From Melioribacter sp. (GTDB lineage: Bacteria; Bacteroidota; Ignavibacteria; Ignavibacteriales; Melioribacteraceae), in NCBI GenBank assembly GCA_012026935.1, contig VEPI01000065.1, positions 1 through 48,394 on the forward strand: a stretch of DNA of 48,394 bases, read 5' to 3'. Shown here piece after piece: positions 16,682-18,100 of the stretch. A model generated the notes under the pieces. That model saw only the letters and a list, made by a program, of their open reading frames with translations. It did no database searches and was not told where the DNA came from. Made by a program: the position numbers and the translations under genes. How positions within the stretch are numbered: the first letter of the stretch is position 1; every line of letters starts with the position of its first letter.

Positions 16682-16870
16682 AGTTGACACTTATTTGATG
16701 TGAATAAAAAAATTAATAAAAGAAAAACTTTTGAATGTATAAAACCCCGGTGACATATAAGCAGTTTTTCCCAACAGATTTTGGAATAAAAAACGCATAA
16801 ATTAAAAATATTTTCTAAATTTATTATAAAACTGTCCAGTTACTGTTCATGCGCATATCATTAATAATTT

Positions 16871-16953
16871 GGTTGAGTATATAGTTTTCTATACTAAGAC
16901 GTGCTCTTTCACTGGATTGGAGAGTTCAGGTTTGATCCCTTAGAGAGCAACTA
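16871..16953 (+). pseudogene. Degenerate tRNA-Glu(UUC)-like sequence
   Basis: The sequence contains CTTTCAC, the anticodon loop of bacterial tRNA-Glu(UUC), preceded by CTAAGAC (compare CTAGGAC in the intact tRNA-Glu of this window) and followed by a T-arm-like AGG-TTTGATC-CCT. Flanking GGTTGAG and AGCAACT pair at five of seven positions, including a G-U first pair like that of the intact gene. The anticodon stem does not pair, the D region is too long and the total length is 83, so I call it a decayed tRNA or an attachment-site copy rather than a functional gene. The bases from 16682 to 16870 are AT-rich with nothing else recognised. Confidence 0.35.
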
Positions 16954-16959
16954 AAATTT

Positions 16960-16996
16960 AAGTCTTGTAATTGAATAAGTTGCAAGACTTTTTTAT
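16960..16996 (+). terminator. Strong hairpin with T-tract, directly before a start codon
   Basis: AAGTCTTGTAA (16960-16970) pairs with TTGCAAGACTT (16980-16990) with one G-U pair around a 9-base loop, followed by TTTTTATT. It has the form of an intrinsic terminator and would end transcription coming from the island or the tRNA-like sequence. It ends only about 10 bases before the ATG at 17006, so transcripts of that gene must start inside or after it, or read through it. Confidence 0.7.
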
Positions 16997-17005
16997 TGTT
17001 GATCC

Positions 17006-18100
17006 ATGATTAAATTATTTAAAATCATTTCTTCAAATTATCAACTAAAGAGCTTTATTATAATTCTTTTCTTAATTGCTCAGTCACAAAATTTCGCTCA
17101 GAACAAAATTCGTTGTGTGTATTGCCAACAAGAAGTAAATAATAAATATATTCTTGTAGATGGTAAGGCCTATCATCCCGAACACTTTTTATGTAAAGAA
17201 TGCAATAGACCAATCAATGGTAATTTTGTGAGAAAAGACGGAAGCTATTATCATCCCGACTGTTATATTATCGCTGAAAGATTAATTTGTGATTATTGTA
17301 AAAAGGCACTTAATGAAGAATATGTTGTAAATGAAAATAAAAAATATCATAAGTCGTGCTATGAAAATTATATTCTTCCTAAGTGTGCCGTATGTAGTAT
17401 GCCATTAAAAGGGGAGTATTATGAAGATATTTATCAAAATAAATATCATCCATACCATAGAAATGAATTGCACCAATGTGATTGTTGTAATAGAATTATT
17501 TGTCAATCCATTACAAATGGCGGTCAAGATTATTCGGATGGCAGACACATTTGTAATAAATGTTATGCAACAGCAGTGTTTGACCCAAAACAGTTGGCAA
17601 AACTTTTGACTAAAGTTTCAGAACGTCTATCAAGTATTGGTATAAAATTTAATTTGAAGAATATAAAAATAGTTGGTCTTGATAGAAATGTTCTCAGGAA
17701 TAAAGCAAAAGACTATAATGAAAACACCCAAGGTTATTGTGATTCAAAATCGTTAAATAAATACATTGATGATAAATTAGTTGCTCAAACGACATATCAC
17801 AACATTTATGTATTAAACGGGATGTCTTCTATTGTTACAGAATCGATTATTGCCCACGAACTAATGCATTCGTGGATTTATGAAAATACTAAGAATAATT
17901 TTTCTCAAAAGATAAATGAAGGCAGTTGTAATTATGCTTCGTACCTTTATCTGAAATCGCTAAATCAAAATTCTGCTTTGGAACAAATTAAGTTGCTTGA
18001 AACTGATCCTGATGCAATTTATGGAAAGGGATTTTTTGAGATTCGTCAAAGATTTGAGAATAAATCAGTATATGATTTTCTAACTTTTCTTAGATACTAA
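17006..18100 (+). CDS. Secreted LIM-domain/DA1-like zinc metallopeptidase
   Basis: A 364-residue protein with a signal peptide (hydrophobic about 16-31, ending NFAQ). It then has two LIM-type double zinc fingers and a further Cys/His cluster (about 37-195): CVYC...H...CKEC, CDYC...H...C and CAVC...H. The C-terminal part (about 200-364) carries HELMHSW (His284, Glu285, His288) and INEGSCNY (Glu305 as probable third ligand), the pattern of the DA1-like peptidase domain that follows LIM domains in plant DA1 proteins. Bacterial homologues exist but are poorly characterised. Here the zinc fingers would be extracytoplasmic. No SD is seen; the start follows a terminator-like hairpin. It stands alone, without obvious partners. 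Confidence 0.8.
   Translation: MIKLFKIISSNYQLKSFIIILFLIAQSQNFAQNKIRCVYCQQEVNNKYILVDGKAYHPEHFLCKECNRPINGNFVRKDGSYYHPDCYIIAERLICDYCKKALNEEYVVNENKKYHKSCYENYILPKCAVCSMPLKGEYYEDIYQNKYHPYHRNELHQCDCCNRIICQSITNGGQDYSDGRHICNKCYATAVFDPKQLAKLLTKVSERLSSIGIKFNLKNIKIVGLDRNVLRNKAKDYNENTQGYCDSKSLNKYIDDKLVAQTTYHNIYVLNGMSSIVTESIIAHELMHSWIYENTKNNFSQKINEGSCNYASYLYLKSLNQNSALEQIKLLETDPDAIYGKGFFEIRQRFENKSVYDFLTFLRY

Follow-up and report, generated by a model that had tools for sequence, protein, structure and literature searches.

A predicted exported LIM-DA1-like zinc metallopeptidase in Melioribacter

The window, a 48,394-nucleotide stretch of Melioribacter sp. DNA, carries a gene for a 364-residue protein in which LIM zinc modules are joined to a DA1-like HExxH peptidase domain. 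We propose, with a probability of roughly 0.6, that it is an exported (periplasmic or extracellular) DA1-like zinc metallopeptidase that acts without ubiquitin and cuts envelope or scavenged proteins. The domain composition and its conservation carry this proposal, together with an export-type N-terminus and a modelled peptidase fold.

Domain composition, conservation and modelled fold

The start of the gene is well fixed, because an in-frame TGA lies one codon upstream of the ATG and no other ATG, GTG or TTG occurs before the first CxxC. The features are as follows.

17006..18100, + strand: LIM-DA1 gene, whole open reading frame (ATG start, 364 aa, LIM and DA1-like profile matches)
17006..17098, + strand: signal-peptide-like segment, residues 1-31 (hydrophobic-run rule; Q32 column nearly invariant; putative cleavage)
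17114..17263, + strand: canonical LIM domain, C37/C40/H57/H60 and C63/C66/H83/C86 (PF00412, spacing, PDB LIM chains)
17288..17359, + strand: half-LIM, a single zinc module, C95/C98/H115/C118 (second PF00412 stretch, spacing)
17384..17563, + strand: DA1-type LIM-like domain, C127/C130/H148/H151 and C158/C161/C183/C186 (ligands, spacing, hhalign)
17573..18097, + strand: DA1-like gluzincin peptidase domain, residues 190-364 (PF12315, fold neighbours)
17855..17869, + strand: HELMH motif, residues 284-288 (H284, E285 and H288 invariant in 25/25)
17918..17920, + strand: Glu305, probable third zinc ligand, HExxH-x16-E (invariant and at equal distance in 25/25)
18020..18034, + strand: YGKGF motif, residues 339-343 (Y, G and second G invariant; YGxG[FLY] in 25/25)

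Pfam matched the window protein to PF12315 (DA1-like; 49.3 bits against a cut-off of 25, E 5.2e-13, residues 256-322) and to PF00412 (LIM; 49.2 bits against a cut-off of 22.9, E 6.2e-13, two stretches). As both matches lie far beyond cut-off and chance, the original prediction of LIM zinc fingers joined to a DA1-type HExxH peptidase was borne out, and His284, Glu285 and His288 were found at the positions given there; the likely third ligand, Glu305, had not been named. The PF12315 match covered only profile positions 71-137 of 213, and those of relatives spanned 37-211. In the window genome this was the only gene that either profile found. The peptidase family M1 profile PF01433 stayed below its curated cut-off in the window protein (16.7 versus 27.7 bits), and the sole NCBIfam match there was flagellinolysin at E 0.094 (25 relatives: best E 0.00069, in 4/25). 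No DA1 chain occurred among all 31 PDB matches of one listing or among the best 60 of 105 of another. Assignment of the Cys/His pairs to a non-LIM fold, or of the C-terminal part to an unrelated zincin, found no support in Pfam, in PDB profile comparisons or in searches by fold, which placed the pairs with LIM and the C-terminal part with DA1-like proteins or gluzincins.

To describe conservation we aligned the window protein with 24 relatives, one per genome, taken from the phylum and genus PF12315 hits (n = 25); the copies were 30-85% identical to that of the window. PF12315 was found in all 25 and LIM in 24 (Pfam, E<=0.01). The invariant columns include H284, E285, H288, W290, E305, G306, Y339, G340, G342 and the eight LIM-like ligands, and the LIM-like spacing C2C-17-H2H-6-C2C-21-C2C was kept in every sequence, always adjoining the peptidase. 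The N-terminal part was more changeable: a LIM with one half-LIM occurred in 15 sequences, a LIM alone in six and a LIM with two half-LIMs in one; among those lacking a full LIM, two had two half-LIMs and one had one half-LIM. In this tally L036 was counted as a full LIM despite an Asp in place of its last His (the script called it a half-LIM), as was L037, which has Asn there. The N-terminal array therefore gains or loses one zinc module at a time, and it often holds an odd number of them. Thus the zinc-finger part of the original prediction held as to LIM, and the actual make-up differs from it: one canonical LIM at residues 37-86, whose spacing C2C-16-H2H-2-C2C-16-H2C is the eight-ligand LIM pattern, one half-LIM and one LIM-like domain.

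The ten zinc pairs of the window protein leave room for five structural zincs, which, with the varying module number, would suit an exported zinc-binding scaffold or zinc store whose peptidase activity is secondary or lost. An unused active site should decay, however, and HExxH, Glu305 and YGxG were kept in 25/25 sequences while the modules varied; we regard the scaffold or store as quite improbable.

The AlphaFold2 model of the window protein had a mean pLDDT of 91.5 and a pTM of 0.76. Foldseek with the whole model gave 25 PDB matches at E<=0.001, every one a LIM protein; paxillin and PINCH, the eukaryotic LIM adaptors, resemble the window protein in LIM sequence and fold, and are intracellular adaptors without a peptidase. 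Model comparison of residues 192-364 gave Z 9.8-10.7 with E. coli PepN and IRAP (rmsd 2.7-2.9, 141-145 residues aligned), Z 10.8 with oligoendopeptidase F (rmsd 3.3, 164 aligned) and Z 9-10 with ACE-type enzymes. We take these neighbours, the M1 aminopeptidases, oligoendopeptidase F and the ACE-type enzymes, to be gluzincins, and the model suggests that the peptidase part belongs among gluzincins such as the M1 aminopeptidases, at a Z near 10, which is moderate. A sequence profile of this part also ranked aminopeptidases first, at E 0.04 or weaker. The likeness to PepN, IRAP and oligoendopeptidase F is one of modelled catalytic fold at 8-17% identity; the window protein is much smaller than the M1 aminopeptidases and other gluzincins and carries LIM modules. 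Folded alone, the LIM-like domain reached a pLDDT of 92.1, and no PDB entry matched its fold at E<=0.001; GATA3 came nearest at 0.017, and LIM chains followed from 0.03 on. Its relation to LIM is suggested by the zinc pairs and by hhalign, which gave 96.7% over 42 columns against the LIM profile LIM1.

Export and comparison with plant DA1

The window protein begins with K3, K6 and K15, a hydrophobic run and the small-residue-plus-Gln sites A25-Q26 and A31-Q32; the first is the site scored by our export rule, and the family alignment favours the second. The rule is a home-made one, asking for a hydrophobic 12-mer and then a small residue plus Gln. It applied to 25/25 family sequences versus 48/243 neighbouring proteins read from the first start codon (54/243 when a Met anywhere within the first 60 residues was allowed as start), a comparison that favours the family somewhat, as the starts of the relatives were picked by script 20-50 residues upstream of the first CxxC. 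A hydrophobic N-terminus of some kind was present in 112 of the 243 neighbouring proteins. Five of six further family genes had a hydrophobic N-terminus, among them L074, where no standard start codon precedes the first CxxC; the sixth (L078/L095) had none. The second gene of genome G615, L094, was signal-bearing by eye. The bacterial signal peptide of the original prediction thus agrees with an export-type N-terminus that is predicted throughout the aligned family. Zinc modules rich in Cys are seldom met with outside the cytoplasm, which counts against export. By its length the hydrophobic segment could serve as an anchor, and one relative, in G615, is signal-less, points that would also suit a membrane-anchored protein with its LIM and peptidase domains facing the cytoplasm; the basic residues before the segment and the kept small-residue-plus-Gln site fit instead a cleaved signal with the domains outside, and such an anchored protein seems highly improbable to us.

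No ubiquitin-interacting motif (UIM) was detected by Pfam in the window protein (E<=1) or in the 25 relatives (E<=0.01), a search in which so short a motif can be missed by profiles. Therefore plant-style activation by ubiquitin is unlikely. A search for E2 (PF00179) matched nothing in the window genome, and the same search matched no control genome either, so that it carries little weight. The original prediction had held that ubiquitin regulation cannot apply to this protein; the 25 relatives free of detected UIMs and the export-type N-terminus make such regulation improbable, as far as can be judged from sequence.

Plant DA1/DAR proteins such as Arabidopsis DA1 share with the window protein a LIM, a LIM-like domain and a HExxH peptidase in equal order. 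In place of the two N-terminal UIMs of plant DA1, the window protein has a signal-like N-terminus, as well as an extra half-LIM and no sign of ubiquitin regulation. The plant motif HEMMHx15EE, as given in the portions of Dong 2017 consulted (PMC5322733), resembles HELMHx15NE of the window protein, and a Glu directly before the ligand Glu was found in 6/25 relatives. According to the same portions, plant DA1 is latent until ubiquitylated, with a role for the LIM-like domain, and the C274Y form, modelled on a change in the third LIM-like Cys pair, is not ubiquitylated and has no peptidase activity (PMC5322733). The corresponding pair in the window protein, C158/C161, is invariant in 25/25. Since the bacterial copies show no UIMs, the LIM-like domain presumably has a role in the catalytic unit itself, in addition to any in ubiquitin regulation.

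The published latency of plant DA1 and role of its LIM-like domain (PMC5322733, as excerpted), and the fact that this domain adjoins the peptidase in all 25 aligned relatives, would also agree with a latent peptidase, in which the LIM array and LIM-like domain close the active site until substrate, zinc or a redox change releases it. The N-terminal array would hardly be such a lock, since several relatives have one that is short or of another make-up, and we consider latency of this kind a possible but unlikely account. For the exported, ubiquitin-free peptidase that we favour, we propose the following course. The signal peptide would carry the protein over the inner membrane. Outside it, the LIM and half-LIM modules, with a structural zinc expected at the core of each, may form a docking surface for protein substrates, and the LIM-like domain would be a structural part of the catalytic unit, as its invariance and the loss of activity in the plant Cys mutant suggest. 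To judge from ligand conservation and the modelled fold, His284, His288 and Glu305 would hold the catalytic zinc, with Glu285 as general base, and the peptidase would cut or trim envelope or scavenged proteins. Ubiquitin would play no part.

The abstract of Burroughs 2011 reportedly presents prokaryotic LIM domains as partners of membrane-associated peptidases. Dong 2017, in the portions consulted, describes plant DA1 as highly similar to proteins predicted from Roseiflexus that carry four CxxC/H pairs, with Burroughs, Iyer and Aravind 2011 as its reference (PMC5322733). Bacterial relatives of DA1 are therefore already in print, the family is not new, and the original statement that such proteins are known mainly from plants is weakened by this 2017 report. 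The Roseiflexus proteins are likewise bacterial, a comparison made by published description only. We found no description of an exported form or of half-LIM variation in the literature searched, which consisted mostly of papers free of subscription and was read as excerpts. The exported form without ubiquitin parts and the changing number of zinc modules, both predicted, may be of some interest beyond the known family.

Distribution and genomic neighbourhood

PF12315 was found in 17/395 genomes sampled from the phylum and in 30/391 sampled from the class, in both cases all in the order of the window (families f1, f2 and f3 in the class sample), and in 0/14 control genomes. When proteins were searched with the signal-less copy as query, 31/391 class genomes matched; the additional genome lies outside the order, and its match to the DA1 peptidase core, in a 443-aa frame, is weak (G474:C3:131860-132096, 19.9 bits, E 4.2e-4, residues 86-159). 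Within the genus 6/12 genomes carry the gene, and three of the six without it are less than 90% complete. A scan of genome contigs with six short patterns gave one match, in a near relative, a Melioribacter sp. MAG. There was no tblastn match in plasmids or phages, and none was confirmed in viral contigs.

The tree had 31 rows; the second G615 gene (L094, a 446-aa frame) was left out, and L078 formed a long branch whose place is unsure. Eleven of the 28 inner branches were well supported; the six genus copies grouped together (95/91), and f1 and f2 were not single groups. Tree and distribution are compatible with an old gene that was lost in places, with a degree of transfer, or with poor resolution. 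The original prediction had offered an ancestral or a transferred form; the 30-85% identity of the aligned copies to that of the window would fit long residence in these bacteria. The restriction of PF12315 to one order of the sampled phylum (17/395) and its patchiness there (6/12 genus members) might also be read as a DA1 gene that these bacteria acquired recently from plants or algae. Against this stand the wide divergence within the order (30-85% identity to the window copy), the genus clade at 95/91, the export signals predicted for nearly every copy, and a relative from Roseiflexus already published (PMC5322733, in the portions consulted), and we think such a transfer very improbable.

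No conserved neighbour hinting at a pathway was found in 21 regions (the window and L041-L060). The commonest neighbour cluster, a MatE transporter, was present in 5/21 and stood beside the gene in four of those five. The orthologue in genome G172 is 86% identical to the window protein, and in both the same downstream genes follow, for a response regulator, a histidine kinase and a LuxR-type regulator. Between its adenosine deaminase and LIM-DA1 genes G172 has about 3.8 kb of DNA (L041 4566-7995), absent from the window, which carries a weakly glycosidase-like open reading frame and a LacI-type regulator.

Just upstream of the window gene, at 16840-17003, we noted a stretch resembling the 3' part of tRNA-Gln, followed by a terminator-like hairpin at 16960-16990. 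The ATG lies about 15 bases past the hairpin in the window (16990-17006) versus about 70 in G172. At the corresponding position G172 has a copy with 82% identity to this element and, 2 kb away, a second one; a weaker partial copy lies at G000:C106:14-154. ARAGORN called a whole tRNA-Gln(CTG) at six of eight pattern loci; in Rfam nothing reached the gathering score for the element. Because it holds the tRNA-Gln-like stretch, a tRNA-derived repeat is likelier than an RNA regulator of the gene.

A signal-less relative and wider meaning

Among the 32 family genes examined only one, in G615, is signal-less. It encodes a LIM-like domain and DA1 peptidase in 244 aa (L096 8536-9270; L078/L095; DA1-like 33.8 bits), and its frame overlaps the next gene (VWA), after which come genes for PP2C, another VWA protein and a protein kinase.

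L096 8536-13531 (G615:C20, about 165.5-170.5 kb): tight operon of signal-less DA1, VWA, PP2C, VWA and kinase

PADLOC matched the kinase alone among ten proteins at this locus. The published excerpts consulted describe a TerY-P triad composed of VWA, PP2C and a kinase with a zinc ribbon or OB-fold, and ascribe antiphage action to TerY-P-like modules (PMC11090510); the G615 operon is likened to the triad by its VWA, PP2C and kinase genes alone. It is thus a candidate TerY-P-like switch with a DA1 peptidase, judged by gene content.

We put forward, as a tentative idea that is more doubtful than not, that LIM-DA1 peptidases are an old, ubiquitin-free bacterial invention in two forms, one exported, with a LIM array that varies by single zinc modules to fit substrates, and one cytosolic, wired to kinase, phosphatase and VWA switches, and that the cytosolic form was later adopted by plants under ubiquitin control. 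In plants, where DA1 sets a limit to the size of seeds and organs, it has been studied under the control of ubiquitin. With an exported bacterial form that stands alone, the LIM-like and peptidase core could be studied without ubiquitin, and such study would show what the LIM-like domain contributes to catalysis. The gain or loss of one zinc module in LIM arrays is relevant to the origin of the two-zinc LIM domain. Should the signal-less form linked to a kinase turn out to be general, it would provide a bacterial parallel to regulated DA1.
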